A DNA stretch of 22,726 nucleotides from a virus: positions 1 through 22,726 of the IMG/VR virus record IMGVR_UViG_3300027749_000498. One strand, 5' to 3'. The notes beneath the pieces were generated by a model. The model did not search any database, was not told the DNA's origin, and worked only from the letters and a program-made list of their open reading frames with translations. Position numbers and translations under genes: made by a program. Shown piece after piece: positions 6,659 to 15,263 of the stretch. Position 1 is the stretch's first letter. Every line of letters begins with the position of its first letter.

Positions 6659-6795
6659 TTTCTCCCCCCAGTCAAATCCGCCCACAGCCCGCCCACGACT
6701 AGCGCGGCCACGGCGGGAGCGCATAGGATCATTGGCGGCAGGAGGACGGCGTAGGCCAGAGACAGGGCGCAGTAGTATTGTAGGCGAAAGGTCAT
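6655..6795 (-). CDS. 46-aa small membrane protein
   Basis: A short frame (MTFRLQYYCALSLAYAVLLP...) with a nearly continuous hydrophobic stretch at about residues 9-38, probably two short membrane spans or one long one, and a short GGRK tail. It is coupled by ATGA overlaps at both ends: to the coiled-coil zinc protein upstream and to the PP-loop gene downstream. That placement both supports it and rejects the long N-terminal extension of the PP-loop frame, which would run over it. Function is unknown. Confidence 0.65.
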   Translation of the reverse strand: MTFRLQYYCALSLAYAVLLPPMILCAPAVAALVVGGLWADLTGGRK

Positions 6796-7226
6796 AAGGA
6801 CTCCTTGGCTTTGGTCCATGCTTTGATATCGGTCGCGGCTGCGGCAAACGGATTGGACAACCGATCCCCCGCCTCCGTGAGCCGCTTGACCTTGGCCTCA
6901 AGCTCGGACACTCTTTGCGACCACTCCTCGGTGGCCTTTTCAACTCCACGCCGCTCGCCTGATGCCATTAGTGAGTGAAGCGTTTTGTTCGTTTCATCAA
7001 GCTCGGACACGCGGTCGCGGAGGGTGCTCAATTCCTTTCGTTCGCAATGCGTGCTTCGTGATATTTCCGGTTTTTGCTCGGCGTGAAGCGTCGTCCAGCA
7101 TTTGAAAACAACCCAACGACTGGAACGATTCTCAACATCATCTTCACAAAACGGGCACTTGTCCAACCCAGCTAAAAGCTCGGCGGTGATGATGGTGTCG
7201 GGATTCATTAAGAGTTTGTCTGTCAT
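6792..7226 (-). CDS. Zinc-motif plus coiled-coil phage protein
   Basis: A 144-residue protein. CPFC (residues 24-27) with later Cys/His residues (KCW, HAEQ, STHCE) suggests a small zinc site resembling those at the head of short phage CPFC proteins such as Lar-like anti-restriction proteins, though the rest does not clearly match. From about residue 65 a long coiled coil follows (ELSTLRDRVSELDETNKTL and EEWSQRVSELEAKVKRL). It ends TEAGDRL...WTKAKESL, which resembles the end of the 86-residue protein at 4752-5012. Function is unknown. Its stop overlaps the next gene; its start is 12 bases after the Gly/Tyr repeat gene, and overlaps the stop of an alternative Thr/Val frame through the repeat. 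Confidence 0.72.
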   Translation of the reverse strand: MTDKLLMNPDTIITAELLAGLDKCPFCEDDVENRSSRWVVFKCWTTLHAEQKPEISRSTHCERKELSTLRDRVSELDETNKTLHSLMASGERRGVEKATEEWSQRVSELEAKVKRLTEAGDRLSNPFAAAATDIKAWTKAKESL

Positions 7227-7238
7227 TTTGTGTGTTGT

Positions 7239-7481
7239 TTAAGCTGATAGTTTTGACCCGCCACCGTAACCGTAACCGTAACCGCCACCGTAACCGTAAC
7301 CGTAACCGGCACCGTTACCGTTACCGTAACCGTCGCCGTAACCGGACCCGTAATTGTAACCGTAACCGTAACCGTAACCGTCACCGGACCCGCCACCGGA
7401 CCCTCCACCGTAACCGGACCCGTAACCGTAATCGGACCCGTAACCGTAACCGTCAAATGTTGTTACCAGCCTTTGTTGCAT
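7239..7481 (-). CDS. Gly/Tyr-rich low-complexity repeat protein
   Basis: An 80-residue protein with a short start (MQQRLVTTFD) followed by about 60 residues in which Gly alternates with Tyr, Ser, Asp, Asn or Gly (GYGYGSDYGYGSGYGGGS...), ending GGSKLSA. The repeat is also open in other frames. This frame is preferred because Gly codons vary mostly at the third base (GGT, GGG, GGC, GGA) while the first two stay GG. The same changes in the Thr/Val frame would swap Val for Gly. Similar GY-rich small proteins occur in environmental phages with no known role; self-association or phase separation is a guess. The start lies inside the end of the preceding gene by 19 bases and has no clear ribosome site. 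Confidence 0.55.
   Translation of the reverse strand: MQQRLVTTFDGYGYGSDYGYGSGYGGGSGGGSGDGYGYGYGYNYGSGYGDGYGNGNGAGYGYGYGGGYGYGYGGGSKLSA
7258..7455. repeat. Degenerate (CCGTAA)n hexanucleotide repeat
   Basis: About 200 bases built from the hexamer CCGTAA (TTACGG on the minus strand), with interspersed variants such as CCGGACCCG, CCGCCA and CCGTTA. Because the period is a multiple of three, five of the six frames stay open across it; only the plus frame reading CCG TAA is blocked. It encodes the Gly/Tyr-rich protein on the minus strand. Copy number is likely to vary between related phages by slippage. Confidence 0.9.
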
Positions 7482-7774
7482 TGGATAAAAGAGATTACAG
7501 ACTTCATTGGGACCAAAACAGTTCCAGTTTCATCGCATGTTGTTGTCGGAAGCGGACCATTTACCAGCTCACCAATACCATTTTTAGTTCCCCAAATTCG
7601 AATGCACTTTGCATCGTTAATTTGACAAAAATCTCCATCAACCTTGGTTTTACCGGCAAACACAAAACCTCGATCAACGATCACAATTTGAATTCCAAGA
7701 TCTCGCTGAGCCGATTGTGTCGGCTGTATTTTTCCAGAGATAAGCGACACCAATTCTGACAGTTCAATGTTCAT
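7463..7774 (-). CDS. DUF6948-like phage protein
   Basis: A 103-residue protein. The core VIVDRGFVFAGKTKVDGDF, then KCIRIWGTKNGIGELVNGP and a C-terminal VLVPMKSVISFIQ ending in Trp, follows the pattern I know for the DUF6948 family of small phage proteins (strand, RxWGTxxGxGELxxxGP, TxxxxxGTVxVPxxxVI). The assignment is from memory of the family pattern and is moderate. It is probably a compact beta-barrel of unknown function. Its ATG overlaps the upstream zinc-knuckle gene by ATGA, which supports the start. Confidence 0.7.
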   Translation of the reverse strand: MNIELSELVSLISGKIQPTQSAQRDLGIQIVIVDRGFVFAGKTKVDGDFCQINDAKCIRIWGTKNGIGELVNGPLPTTTCDETGTVLVPMKSVISFIQCNKGW

Positions 7775-7983: not shown

Positions 7984-9921
7984 TCAGACCGCCAAAACTG
8001 GAGCCATGAGATCTGAATCGTTCAATGATTGCAAGTTTTTTAGCTTTTTTTCTAACGCATTGGCCACTTGAGCCTCAATTGTGCCGTCGGCGTACAGGAT
8101 TTTCTGGATGGAATTCTTTCCACCGGCCCTGTGAACACGGCCCAAAGTCTGAACAAGCTCGATTGCTGAGTAACTTGGAGAAACCAGAGCCAGTCTTGGC
8201 CGATCTTTGATGCAATGAAGGCTAACACCGACTCCACCTGCTTGAATATTGCACAGGATCAACGCAGAACGGTCAGCTTGGAACTCTTCAATGGCCTGCT
8301 GACGCTCAAACGGTGTCTGACCACCTTCAATTCTTCCGATACAACTCACGGTGGCCTTAAGAGCGTCGTTTAGTGCCTGGATTGTCTCCCTGAAACAACA
8401 AAAAACAGCGACTGACATGCCCTGTTCGACTGCGTCTTCCACCATTTCCACGATTGCAGGGATTTTGGCTGCTTCCGATAGCTGTCTAGCCCTCAAAAGA
8501 GCCACCAATGGGCTGTCAGCGTCGGTTTTTTGCTTCTCGTTGACTCGTTTGATGACTTCTTGAGCCTCTTTGTATGCCTGGTTGATTTCCTTGGTCGCTT
8601 TCAGGCCGACCGGAATGAGTTTGGTCTCGATATGGGTCTCAGGAAATGCGCTTCCCAGCTCTTTGACCCTGATTCTAGTGCCTTTTGAGCGGAAGATCTC
8701 TCTGGAAATCTGGGCTAGGTTGTCTTGGTTGCCTCGGAATTCTAATCCTCCGAACCGACCTTCCTTGCAACCGTGATTTTTGGACCATTGCCAGTGTTCT
8801 GAGGGGTTTCTGAACAGCCCAAGGGCAAAACCGATAGCTTTCATCTCAACCGGGCTTGTCGCTGCCGTCGCTGACAACAACAGGAGTGGGATGTTTGCTC
8901 GTTTTGCTTCAATCAGCAGCTTGGAATTCTGACTAGACGATCCTTTGCAACGGTGTACTTCGTCAAAAACCAGCAACGTGCCGTCTTGGATTGTCCAGAT
9001 CCATTGCTTTTTACCTCGGGAATCAGTGATCCACCTTCCCCACTGAGTTGTACCACGTCGCACTAGTTCATAATTGATACAGTCTAGCCTAATTCCAAAG
9101 TGAGCCGCTGCCTTTCTCCAGGATGGAATCACAGCCAGTGGACAAATCACTAGAGCCGGAATTACAAGTATATGGATGGCTTTGCAAGCCTTGTACGTTT
9201 TGCCAGTTCCGACTTCAGAAGCGTCCAGGCAGACCTTGTGACGACGAATTGATCCAACGATACGGCTAGTGGACAGCGTTTGCCATGGGAGCAATCCGTT
9301 TGAATCAATTTCAGGGTCCGAAACGCCATTGGAATCGGTTTGAACTGGCTTTATGGAATCTGCTGGCTTCAACGGAGTCCAACGATTGGCGATCCAGCGA
9401 CAGGTCGTTAAACTCTTTCCGACTGTGATTCCAGCTTCAGCCAACTTTGCTTTGTGGGACTTGTAAACTGACCAAAAAGGATGTCCATCAGGAACTGGAG
9501 CGACTTCCAAGGATTTAGGACCGCTATGGGTTTCGACTCGCTTTGGCGCAGCCCATTCTAGACCAAGATTCGGGTCATTTTGGACTTTGGCAGCTTCCTG
9601 CTCCCTCAACTGTCGCTCCAAAATGTCTCCCTGGGGGTCGTTGTAGTGAGGGATTTCCAGATCCTTGAGCTGTGTGAGCCGATACCTGGAGCAGTATTCC
9701 CACGATTTTAGGACTTGAGCAGAACCCCAAGTTCCGATTGACCGACACAGGTCCTGGCCGATTGCTTGGTGAACCTTACTCCAGCCGACACCGTTTAGGG
9801 TCTGCGCTTGGTCAGGATTGGACTCGGTCAAACGTCGGACTCCCGTTTCTAGCCGAGGAAGCAGGTCGTTAGCGTTCATCGTTGTCTTGTTGGTCTGTGG
9901 GTTGGTGGCATTCTTCAACAT
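7984..9921 (-). CDS. SNF2-type SF2 helicase/ATPase
   Basis: A 645-residue SNF2/RapA-like motor. An N-terminal region of about 220 residues without a recognised domain is followed by motif I DASEVGTGKTY (233-243), PLAVIPSW (261-268, motif Ia area), DEVH (320-323), SATA (350-353) and a second lobe with AGGVGVSLHC (motif V) and QTLGRVHRAGG (motif VI with the arginine finger). These ATPases translocate on double-stranded DNA and remodel DNA or displace bound proteins, and are common in phage replication modules. An ATG at 9921 with a GAGGTG site five bases upstream is taken as the start; the ATG at 9879 would shorten the overlap with the upstream gene from 53 to 11 bases. Confidence 0.9.
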   Translation of the reverse strand: MLKNATNPQTNKTTMNANDLLPRLETGVRRLTESNPDQAQTLNGVGWSKVHQAIGQDLCRSIGTWGSAQVLKSWEYCSRYRLTQLKDLEIPHYNDPQGDILERQLREQEAAKVQNDPNLGLEWAAPKRVETHSGPKSLEVAPVPDGHPFWSVYKSHKAKLAEAGITVGKSLTTCRWIANRWTPLKPADSIKPVQTDSNGVSDPEIDSNGLLPWQTLSTSRIVGSIRRHKVCLDASEVGTGKTYKACKAIHILVIPALVICPLAVIPSWRKAAAHFGIRLDCINYELVRRGTTQWGRWITDSRGKKQWIWTIQDGTLLVFDEVHRCKGSSSQNSKLLIEAKRANIPLLLLSATAATSPVEMKAIGFALGLFRNPSEHWQWSKNHGCKEGRFGGLEFRGNQDNLAQISREIFRSKGTRIRVKELGSAFPETHIETKLIPVGLKATKEINQAYKEAQEVIKRVNEKQKTDADSPLVALLRARQLSEAAKIPAIVEMVEDAVEQGMSVAVFCCFRETIQALNDALKATVSCIGRIEGGQTPFERQQAIEEFQADRSALILCNIQAGGVGVSLHCIKDRPRLALVSPSYSAIELVQTLGRVHRAGGKNSIQKILYADGTIEAQVANALEKKLKNLQSLNDSDLMAPVLAV

Positions 9922-10063
9922 GCTCGCACCTCACGCAAAATGGGCTCCACTTGTTGGCAGTGGCATAGGTAAACTCATGGCAAGGTGGGCGGCAATCTTC
10001 GATTGTTAGCTGATAGAACGAATCTAGGTCGCAGACACAGGGTGATTTTTTGGGTGATTTCAT
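9869..10063 (-). CDS. Small Cys-rich protein
   Basis: A 64-residue protein with CVC (residues 9-11), a Cys-x3-Cys-His set (CRPPCH), then CVRC (43-46) and CHQ, enough ligands for one or two zinc sites. It begins MKSPKKSPCVCDLDSFYQ and ends in an acidic, Gln-rich tail. Its ATG overlaps the stop of the lysozyme-like gene (ATGA), and it overlaps the start of the SNF2 helicase. No family is recognised; a DNA-binding or partner protein for the helicase is only a guess from position. Confidence 0.62.
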   Translation of the reverse strand: MKSPKKSPCVCDLDSFYQLTIEDCRPPCHEFTYATANKWSPFCVRCEHVEECHQPTDQQDNDER

Positions 10064-13449: not shown

Positions 13450-13488
13450 CTATGACACTATGACACTATGACACTATGACACTAGACA
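13450..13488 (+). repeat. CTATGACA tandem repeat reaching the terL start
   Basis: Four exact tandem copies of the 8-mer CTATGACA (13450-13481) and a degenerate fifth (CTAGACA). Each copy carries an ATG that opens the frame ATG ACA CTA TGA, and each of these stops overlaps the next ATG. The chain ends at the ATG of terL (13476), whose next codons MTLD are no longer interrupted because of the degenerate copy. Slippage could change copy number without altering the TerL protein. Confidence 0.9.
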
Positions 13489-15263
13489 CTGCGGCAGGGG
13501 GGGAGGGGGTTGGCAAGCTGGATGGCGGCCAGGTGGCGACGGATTCCCTAAACCAAAAAATTTCCACAAATGACTTGTATTCAAGGGTTTGTCCAACTTG
13601 TTGCAAGTCGTTTGAAGCGCAGCGTGAGCGTGGTGTTTTTTGCGGTGCGCCGTGTCAGCTGAAGTGGTGGTCGGATCAGCCTGAGCATCCGGTTATACCG
13701 AGAGTTGACCACAAGTTGCCGAACGCGGCTGCTTTGAGGGAAAAGCGGATCCGGTTGTTGCTGTTGGAGAAGGGAGATCCGTACAGTTTTGGGTACATCC
13801 CGGATCACTGGGAGGTGGCAAACAAGTATTTGCCGGACACGTCTGAGATGTTGGTGTCTGGTGGAAATCGTGCAGGCAAGACGTTGTTTGCGGCGCGGAA
13901 GGTTGTTGAGACGCTTTTAAGTGGTGAGAACAAGAACGTGTTGTGCTGCCACACGAGTAATGCGACTAGCGTAACTGTCCAGCAACCAGCGATTTACAAC
14001 TACTTGCCTGTGGCGTTGAGGGCGACGAAGAAGGGCAAGATTCACTACCTGAACTATTCTCGGAAGAACGGGTTTACGGACGGGTCGTTCATTTTGCCGA
14101 ATGGTTCACGGTGTGACTTTCTCAATTACACGCAGAGTGAAAACACGATTGAAGGGCGTGAAGCGGACTTGATTTGGTGTGACGAGTTGGTTCCTCAGAG
14201 CTGGGTGGACACGTTGAGGTACCGTTTGGTTACGCGAAGAGGCAAGTTTTTGGTGACTCAGACTCCATTGGAAGGAGTGGCGTCGATATACAAGGAATTT
14301 GTAGCTGGCGCGGCTGTATTGGAGTGGGCACCAGGGCAGTTGTTGGAAGGCAAGTCAGCGGTGGTTGGGTGGCCGACTGGAAAAGCTCCGAGGGTTATGG
14401 AGCGCAAGGAATTGGGCAGGAAGACGGTGTTCTTCTTTAGTGAAGACAATCCATACAATCCTTGGGACGAGATGAAGTCGAAGCTTGTGGGTGCTCCGAT
14501 GGGGCAGGTTTTGACTCGGGCGTATGGCTGGGCGACGGACAATGTGGGAAAGGCGTTTGCGAGATTTCGGCCTGAGACTCACTGTGTGGACGTGAGCAAG
14601 ATGGCTGATGGTGGAACACTGTACATGGTGTGTGACCCGGCTGGTGCGCGTAACTGGTATTGTTTGTGGATGGTGGTGTACGAGGATGGGAAGAAGGTTG
14701 TGGTCAGGGAATTTCCTGATTTTGCGGGGTATGGAGAGTGGGCTTTGCCGAGTGAAAAAGCGGATGGCAAACCGGGTCCAGCGCAGACATTGAGTGCAGG
14801 GCGTTCTATTTCTGAGTATCGGGAGCTGTTCCGACAGATTGAGACTGAGATTGGGCGTGGTGAACCGATCATGCGGCTGATTGATCCCCGGGCAGGTGGA
14901 AGTCCTACGATTAGTGCAGAGGGCGGGACGACGTTGATTGATCTGTTGGCTATTTCAACGGATGAAGATGAAGGAATGGCGTTTGTGCCTGCGCCTGGAG
15001 TTCCAGTAGACCAGAGGACAGCGACGATTAATTCAGAATTAAGCTATGACTCAACGAAGCCTGTGAGCATGTTGAACGAGCCTAAGCTGTATATTTCTAA
15101 GGACTGCCACAACCTAATTTATTGCCTTTCTGAGCATACCGGAAAGGATGGCCAAAAGGGTGCGACAAAGGATGCCATTGATTGTCTTGGCATGTTGTTG
15201 GCGTCCAAGCTGGAGCATATCGGAGCTGGTGGCTTTGATACCATTGGCGGCGGTACTTATTAA
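13476..15263 (+). CDS. terL: Terminase large subunit (TerL), with N-terminal zinc finger
   Basis: A 595-residue packaging motor and nuclease. ATPase domain: Walker A SGGNRAGKT (128-136), Walker B DLIWCDE (231-237) and the coupling motif TQTP (261-264). Nuclease domain of RNase H fold: Asp387 in YMVCDPAG, Asp470 in RLIDPRAG and Asp566 in ATKDAIDC. Residues 38-60 hold a zinc-finger-like set, CPTCC...FCGAPC, not part of the usual TerL core. It pumps DNA into the prohead through the portal encoded next and cuts the concatemer. Upstream is the probable small terminase. The ATG is within the CTATGACA repeat; a G-rich run and later in-frame GTG leave the exact start slightly open. Confidence 0.93.
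   Translation: MTLDTAAGGEGVGKLDGGQVATDSLNQKISTNDLYSRVCPTCCKSFEAQRERGVFCGAPCQLKWWSDQPEHPVIPRVDHKLPNAAALREKRIRLLLLEKGDPYSFGYIPDHWEVANKYLPDTSEMLVSGGNRAGKTLFAARKVVETLLSGENKNVLCCHTSNATSVTVQQPAIYNYLPVALRATKKGKIHYLNYSRKNGFTDGSFILPNGSRCDFLNYTQSENTIEGREADLIWCDELVPQSWVDTLRYRLVTRRGKFLVTQTPLEGVASIYKEFVAGAAVLEWAPGQLLEGKSAVVGWPTGKAPRVMERKELGRKTVFFFSEDNPYNPWDEMKSKLVGAPMGQVLTRAYGWATDNVGKAFARFRPETHCVDVSKMADGGTLYMVCDPAGARNWYCLWMVVYEDGKKVVVREFPDFAGYGEWALPSEKADGKPGPAQTLSAGRSISEYRELFRQIETEIGRGEPIMRLIDPRAGGSPTISAEGGTTLIDLLAISTDEDEGMAFVPAPGVPVDQRTATINSELSYDSTKPVSMLNEPKLYISKDCHNLIYCLSEHTGKDGQKGATKDAIDCLGMLLASKLEHIGAGGFDTIGGGTY

Follow-up and report, generated by a model that had tools for sequence, protein, structure and literature searches.

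A hexanucleotide tract in a phage genome raises the question of which of its open frames, if any, encodes a protein, and of what such a protein would do. The plus strand of the window, i.e. the whole stretch of DNA analysed (22.7 kb), carries an SU10-type capsid gene and a terminase gene; helicases, an SSB-like gene and small genes form a block on the minus strand. The features surrounding the tract are collected in Table 1. Elsewhere in the window, at 13450-13490, about five copies of CTATGACA are located at and upstream of the terminase start codon (ATG 13476).

Table 1. Position of the repeat array and of the neighboring features in the window
Feature	Position	Strand	Description
Gene 1, upstream gene of the cassette	7463..7774	-	103 aa; DUF6948-related, predicted Sm-like fold
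Overlap of gene 1 and gene 2, 19 nt	7463..7481	-	Gene 2 starts inside the end of gene 1
Gene 2, (G-x)n low-complexity gene	7239..7481	-	80 aa; ATG at 7481; Gly/Tyr frame
Hexanucleotide array	7263-7453 (Tandem Repeats Finder); 7260..7451 as 32 units in register	-	Consensus GGTTAC
Thr/Val ORF, judged spurious	7223..7456	-	TTG start; beyond the stop of the upstream gene, in phase with that gene
Next gene of the operon	6792..7226	-	144 aa; ATG at 7226
Block missing in L001	7232..7786	-	Both cassette genes plus a short spacer and the final codons of the gene before them

The repeat array and its open frames

The hexanucleotide tract reported by the first-pass annotation of this DNA is present, with a period of 6, 31.8 copies and 74% matches according to Tandem Repeats Finder. 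Three open minus frames had been counted; only two are open across the array, together with two plus frames, and the Leu/Arg minus frame is interrupted by three stops. In the Gly/Tyr frame, gene 2 consists of a leader, MQQRLVTTFD, followed by the 32 hexamer units. The Thr/Val ORF initiated at a TTG exists as described, and its TGA and the ATG of the following gene share an ATGA junction.

The choice of the Gly/Tyr frame had been argued from the silent third base of its Gly codons. Variation in these codons is indeed greater at base 3 (6 changes) than at the first two bases (3 changes), the single changes from GGTTAC in the 32 units being distributed as 1, 2, 6, 9, 10 and 1 over bases 1 to 6. 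As an argument for selection, however, this pattern fails: 6 of the 29 changes are silent in the Gly/Tyr frame versus 6.4 for random placement (P 0.66), and 10 of 29 in the Thr/Val frame versus 9.7 (P 0.52). Because the silent counts match random placement in both frames, the sequence of the window alone picks neither of them.

The coding frame in related tracts

The relatives decide. A set of 197 distinct tracts was chosen for its G-x composition, Gly alternating with one other residue, x. The Gly slot is occupied by Gly at 97.2% and the x slot by Y (38.6%), D (25.5%), S (19.8%) and N (7.6%), percentages that are raised by this way of choosing the tracts; when the filter on x is omitted, 212 tracts are obtained, and 8 of the 15 extra ones are GGG-type arrays read as Thr/Pro in another frame. 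The openness of the Thr/Val frame, observed in 195 of the 197 tracts, is no evidence, because in (GGN NAC)n a frame of this type reads GNN ACG and cannot stop. An in-frame upstream ATG with no stop in between is found for the G-x frame in 153 of the 197 tracts, against 32 for the equivalent of the Thr/Val frame. Leaders also recur: among 74 repeat genes, 30 are of the TLDG type, 17 EDSQ, 8 ALIDxEA and 19 other, and the leader of gene 2 is similar to the MERLVTLDG and METxLTLDG of its relatives.

The bases chosen in the x codons point to the same frame. Any change within the NAC set, or within the NCC set, is silent in the Thr/Val-type frame and replaces a residue in the G-x frame. Over the 197 tracts, the NAC codons are TAC (2284), GAC (1501), AAC (414) and CAC (68), and the NCC codons TCC (1095), GCC (37), ACC (45) and CCC (2). 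Repeat units are not independent, as they are copied by slippage; counted by tract (n=197), the figures are 121 for TCC, 18 for GCC, 18 for ACC, 78 for AAC and 36 for CAC. The 70 arrays that were reached via gene 1, which had likewise passed a filter on x, contain TAC 679, GAC 539, AAC 138 and CAC 16 times, and TCC 150, GCC once, ACC 3 times and CCC once.

As no cassette gene was found in the close relatives of the window phage, length variants were compared in 7 of the 115 Barba phage records and in 6 of 8 Pectobacterium/Dickeya matches, these six being Pectobacterium phages. The repeat gene measures 210, 216, 240 or 252 nt in the seven Barba isolates and 162, 222, 258 or 270 nt in the six Pectobacterium phages, so that the sampled genes of both groups differ in length by multiples of six only. 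Indels breaking the Gly/Tyr frame and sparing the Thr/Val frame had been named as the observation that would speak against the former; none exists among these variants, but multiples of six keep every frame and their testimony does not discriminate. In unit-by-unit alignments to a reference isolate, the first two Gly bases are unchanged and the changes fall mainly on bases 1 and 2 of x. Gly is consequently read as fixed, with x drifting inside a small alphabet, because the changes avoid the former bases and concentrate on the latter. Of the 33 changes counted among Barba isolates in six comparisons, all with the same reference, 25 affect base 4; such changes are silent in the Thr/Val-type frame and residue-changing in the G-x frame, and count against the G-x reading. 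Judged on these sequences, the G-x frame is supported by which bases are chosen, and not by the number of silent changes.

Fusions provide a further indication. The Gly-x module is joined to a C-terminal domain of the FAHG...WHxxLTGSC kind in L237:2261-2782, L240:2267-2836, L254:1761-2522, L102:4528-5232 and L016:3056-3856, carried by gut phages and by a Monoglobus plasmid record; no Pfam name was obtained for this domain in the members scanned. In another fusion, L081, the C-terminal domain matches DUF7666 (Pfam, 28.5 bits for a cut-off of 27). These fusions to C-terminal domains use the G-x frame, as does the fusion in L037 (see below), where the folded domain is on the other side of the repeat. 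Matches of the repeat proteins themselves to TrAA12, keratin and similar Pfam entries look compositional and were set aside, though some exceed their cut-offs (TrAA12 in L083, 41 bits; keratin-associated in L085, 23.4 bits).

Dual or frame-switching coding had been proposed for this tract. The Thr/Val frame, alone or with the Gly/Tyr frame, would in that case be a product, and its ATGA junction with the next gene, its openness across the tract and the silence in this frame of the base-4 changes that dominate between Barba isolates speak for it. Against these points stand the inability of the frame to stop, the scarcity of its upstream ATGs, the fusions in the G-x frame and the rarity of CAC relative to TAC, although exchanging T for C at base 4 leaves the Thr/Val reading unchanged. 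Two frames both conserved as proteins with their own starts were not found in the 197 tracts, because the second frame has an upstream ATG in 32 of them against 153 for the first, and because choices that are silent in it are strongly restricted in the G-x frame. A Thr/Val product is hence scarcely credible. The evidence from relatives argues strongly that the Gly/Tyr frame, which the first-pass annotation had favored, is the gene, and that the G-x code gives rise to the Thr/Val frame as a by-product.

The two-gene cassette and its distribution

Gene 2 does not stand alone in the window, and its overlap with the end of gene 1 suggests translational coupling. The gene 1 protein used alone as query retrieved no relatives in viral contigs, where an alignment profile did find them. 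By tblastn it matched 119 phage records (115 Rheinheimera, 2 Rhodobacter phage RcapNL and 2 Manatee Spring); one record of each kind was read (n=3), and a (G-x)n protein is encoded by the next gene in all three. The (G-x)n protein of one relative is labelled 'lamprin' by its depositors. A profile of four proteins (A1) was used on IMG/VR, and 80 of 180 loci were taken. With the window and three phage records, these give 84 loci, 74 of which have a (G-x)n gene adjoining the gene 1 stop, with x mostly Y, D, S or N; the pairing is found in 70 of the 80 newly fetched loci and, after clustering at 80% identity, in 61 of the 66 clusters. When the first ATG, GTG or TTG counted from 45 nt before the gene 1 stop is taken as the start, gene 2 overlaps this stop in 66 of the 74 two-gene relatives and keeps the same relative frame in 67.

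Ten of the 84 loci lack a repeat gene behind gene 1. The contig of L206 ends at the gene 1 stop and that of L169 23 nt past it, the remaining DNA resembling the start of a (G-x)n gene; L199, L200, L202-L204 and L214 possess a repeat ORF upstream of gene 1 instead; L201 begins at a contig end and has no repeat gene behind gene 1, and L185 has no repeat gene at all.

The reverse test started from DNA: the pattern (GGTTAC)3 gave at least 120 loci, and of 120 assessed with the looser score, 25 are devoid of a (G-x)n gene. A first array was considered testable when 400 nt or more precede it (64), and 23 located near a locus end were left out. A DUF6948-family gene lies upstream on the same strand for 56 of the 64, and 55 are at most 300 nt behind such a gene or fused to one; the A3 profile used here comes partly from the same loci, and its 32 members match PF22253 independently. 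Seven arrays have no upstream DUF6948-family gene (L012, L024, L074, L076, L077, L085 and L124). In L045 this gene is 6.5 kb from the array, and in L096 the first array precedes the DUF6948 gene while a second one is directly behind it. At many pattern loci the upstream genes belong to a second branch, of the 'ARRLWYWxGAASLSQLA' kind. In the phage contig L037, the domain and the repeat are combined in frame in a single ORF of 198 residues. L238 has a DUF6948-type gene with no repeat gene behind it, and ten loci from bacterial genomes contain a repeat gene in seven cases by the stricter score (upstream in L231) and in eight by the looser one. Control loci yielded neither gene in 18 by the stricter score, and a Gly-x stretch in 1 of 18 by the looser one.

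Several loci depart from this simple arrangement. Tandem (G-x)n genes are found in L217:2767-5229 (seven genes), and also in L054, L056, L075, L050, L072, L074 and L032/L043, the copies having closely similar leaders and C ends and different repeat cores. The seven L217 genes are not each accompanied by a gene 1 copy, a poor fit to a simple 1:1 partnership. In L174:1684-3129, three repeat genes surround one DUF6948-type gene and the Gly-x repeat passes into YWDRYWDRYW. In the Iodobacter phage phiPLPE (L233:1173-1409), a (G-x)n ORF overlaps the end of a DUF6948-type gene in an unannotated stretch.

Could the tract be a mere product of slippage, a microsatellite open by chance in several frames with no protein under selection? 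Its hypervariability, and the lack in the window of any frame with an excess of silent changes, would fit. The recurrence of the same kind of gene beside the same neighbor in the clusters, the restricted x alphabet, the recurring leaders, the fusions and the near-empty control loci make this explanation highly improbable. Gene 2 is strongly supported as the gene of a Gly-Tyr protein, predicted to be disordered, that pairs with gene 1 in many different phages, and the coding frame and the two-gene cassette, taken together, are on the sequence evidence regarded as nearly certain.

The genomic setting of the cassette was also considered. L001 to L003 are the core relatives of the window phage, with a helicase 91-93% identical. 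Positions 8000 down to 7787 of the window have a match in L001 (95%), followed by 19 identical nt at 7231-7213; in L001 the two matching segments are one base apart. These 19 nt (L001, about 10040-10058) correspond to the start of the downstream genes, which both begin with MTDKL and are otherwise different, and possibly represent a recombination joint. No cassette gene was found in L002, and the L003 contig ends within the helicase. Because L001 is without the block, the cassette is dispensable at the lineage level. Within a few kb of it, several named phages carry erf, bet, recE, exonuclease, SSB or DNA polymerase genes. The early-gene setting is not uniform: the RcapNL cassette is near a repressor, and that of the Pectobacterium phage Taid is flanked on either side by tail genes of the opposite strand. 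Further carriers include Iodobacter, Chlorobiaceae, Pectobacterium and Vibrio phages, human-gut phage scaffolds, the Monoglobus plasmid record and a Neisseria gonorrhoeae record. In the latter (L253:1501-2250, about 1152550 of NZ_CP119142.1), a DUF6948-type gene is followed by the Gly-x frame YGNGNGSGNGDGYGNG..., at a locus presumably lying in a prophage; tblastn hit three such places per record in two records.

The proximity of replication or recombination genes in several phages would also suit a function of the DNA repeat itself, as origin iterons or as a packaging or recombination site. The DNA varies, however, while the G-x code persists (the modal Gly codon by tract, n=197, is GGT in 106, GGC in 81, GGG in 8 and GGA in 2), and L001 lacks the cassette, so little credence is given to this explanation.

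Predicted fold and possible role of the two proteins

The window gene 1 protein has no Pfam match at E <= 1 and does not reach the PF22253 (DUF6948) cut-off of 27 bits; 24 of the 69 members of its branch match PF22253 at E <= 0.1. The second branch comprises 37 upstream ORFs, 32 of which were aligned (A3) after removal of one near-duplicate, one partial and three divergent sequences, and all 32 match PF22253 at E <= 0.01. The profiles of the window branch (A2) and of the second branch are related according to hhalign (probability 95.4, E 1.8e-8). As it is below the Pfam cut-off and yet profile-related to true members, gene 1 is classified on sequence as a relative of PF22253, not as a member. 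Neither the 69 proteins (E <= 0.1) nor the 32 (E <= 0.01) match a Sm, LSM or Hfq Pfam family, and the protein is therefore described as having a predicted Sm-like fold rather than called a Sm protein. A search of PDB sequences with A2 returned nothing but an acetyltransferase (E 0.44), and PHROGs, NCBIfam and PADLOC gave nothing useful or above cut-off for either gene. No canonical Sm motifs were recognised, and RNA binding is proposed tentatively.

Modelled by AlphaFold with 69 sequences (pLDDT 90.6, pTM 0.74), gene 1 presents the element order H-E-E-E-h-E-E, and the model contains the helix followed by a five-stranded bent sheet that defines the Sm fold. In the model of the L037 fusion, which represents the second branch, the domain is at about 98 pLDDT and the repeat tail at about 50 with no secondary structure; the tail is predicted to be disordered. 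The 50 PDB matches listed by Foldseek for gene 1 are Sm/Lsm, snRNP or spliceosome entries except for two TIP60 nanoparticles, as are 47 of the 50 listed for L037, the other three being NatC; spliceosome matches name the entry and not the chain, whose Sm identity was read from length and fold. The best E-value for gene 1 among the matches listed is 6.4e-3, and no PDB match of either branch model reaches E <= 0.001. With VIA-align, 49 of the 50 matches listed for gene 1 (Z 9.1-7.5) and all 50 for L037 (Z 8.7-7.6) are Sm/Lsm, snRNP or spliceosome, where Z of 8-9 is moderate and Z under 8 may be background. The remaining gene 1 match belongs to the NatC complex, through a chain presumed to be an Lsm-type subunit. 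In BFVD, the gene 1 model matches DUF6948 proteins and a phage Sm-like protein. This uniformity across two branches is persuasive, and a Sm-like fold of the gene 1 protein is considered very probable.

On this basis, the following mechanism may be outlined. Gene 1 would produce a small protein of predicted Sm/Lsm fold, from a divergent branch related to DUF6948, and gene 2 a disordered protein of (G-x)n type, with an almost invariant Gly and, at x, chiefly Y, D, S or N. The second protein would serve in trans as the tail of a Sm-like oligomer, its acidic and aromatic residues competing with nucleic acid on the ring or organising it; Asp would account for competition, Tyr and Gly for association, and the tail could bring numerous rings together, probably at an early stage of infection. 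Owing to the hexanucleotide code, slippage would change the length and make-up of the tail in steps of two residues. The oligomer or ring, the binding of nucleic acid, the contact of both proteins, the timing and the role as condensate or competitor are all inferred. The first-pass suggestion of a low-complexity, perhaps self-associating product remains plausible in these terms. The best explanation, a Sm-like protein with a fast-evolving disordered tail in trans that tunes nucleic-acid binding or assembly, is given not quite an even chance; the tail-in-trans mechanism as such, the simplest reading by analogy with the acidic tail of Hfq and the tails of Borg Sm proteins, is held slightly more tentatively. 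On a speculative extension that we rate as unlikely at present, phages would run a ribonucleoprotein system of their own, with a Sm-like ring, a separate slippage-variable tail and a tunable condensate or RNA competitor during infection; because the module also occurs joined to other domains, such a ring could gather several client proteins by means of a common Gly-x tag. As several repeat proteins end in other folded domains, the tail may also serve these rather than the Sm-like partner.

Other roles were weighed for the same pair. The (G-x)n protein could be a nucleic-acid mimic or an inhibitor acting on its own, e.g. in anti-defence or host take-over, with the Sm-like protein as carrier, antitoxin or regulator. 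In favor are the recombination or replication genes close to the cassette in several named phages, the share of D (a quarter of x), the fusions to other domains and the arms-race-like differences in length and make-up among closely related phages; Y nevertheless outnumbers D overall, and seven proteins of both kinds gave no PADLOC match, a resource that covers defence and hardly counter-defence. This role is judged improbable. A structural, silk-like or adhesive polymer, beside which the Sm-like fold of the neighbor would be incidental, is less probable again: the repeat resembles fibroin in its strictly alternating Gly, the 'lamprin' label exists and the Taid cassette sits between tail genes, although these are on the other strand, whereas other named phages have recombination or replication neighbors, disorder is predicted, and the repeat is paired directly with the Sm-like protein and fused to it once. 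Finally, the repeat gene could encode a modified-peptide precursor whose leader is bound by the gene 1 protein. The conserved ends of tandem repeat genes, e.g. MTEYFYPVG...TRRRS in L054 and L075 or MKIAINFEDSQNS...GVGY in L217, are reminiscent of such systems; no constant modification-enzyme neighbor is annotated in the named phages that were read, where many neighbors are 'hypothetical', and the Sm/Lsm fold matches of gene 1 and the fusions to folded domains also make this very improbable.

The cassette accounts for a set of phage genes that are 'hypothetical', oddly labelled or unannotated. As Lys and Arg are almost absent from the repeat, ordinary tryptic proteomics is likely to miss its product. 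A literature search on the pairing, conducted on titles and the beginnings of abstracts with few subscription journals covered, found no description of it, and a full-text search for DUF6948 by name found no paper. The compact two-gene format, spread over many phages, and the natural tail variants would offer a direct test of the effect of length and of Tyr, Asp or Ser content on ring function and condensation.

Several known systems can be compared with this cassette. Gene 1 is profile-related to PF22253, the fold is predicted to be shared and the aligned PF22253 members lie directly upstream of repeat genes, but the window protein is below the cut-off and the Pfam name gives no function. The RNA granules of eukaryotes are built with the help of Sm/Lsm proteins bearing low-complexity tails. 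Fibroin has Gly at every second residue, with x being A or S; the likeness to fibroin and lamprin is limited to this composition, whereas the phage protein is short, has Y, D, S and N as x and is encoded beside a Sm-like gene. In bacteria, the acidic disordered C-terminal tail of Hfq is reported to mimic nucleic acid, to compete with it on the ring and to tune RNA annealing (PMC5606850). The predicted fold of gene 1 and its disordered partner, with many acidic residues, are similar to this arrangement; unlike in Hfq, the phage tail has its own gene except in one fusion, is made of Gly-x pairs and varies in length, and no Sm/LSM/Hfq sequence family was detected. Another study describes archaeal Borg Sm proteins with disordered, tandem-repeat N-terminal extensions that are encoded by DNA repeats (PMC9879509). 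In both cases, a Sm or Sm-like protein of a mobile element is joined to a disordered region encoded by a DNA repeat; the Borg repeats are units of 4-17 residues inside the Sm protein, whereas the phage repeat is a unit of two residues, in a neighboring gene and in bacteriophages.
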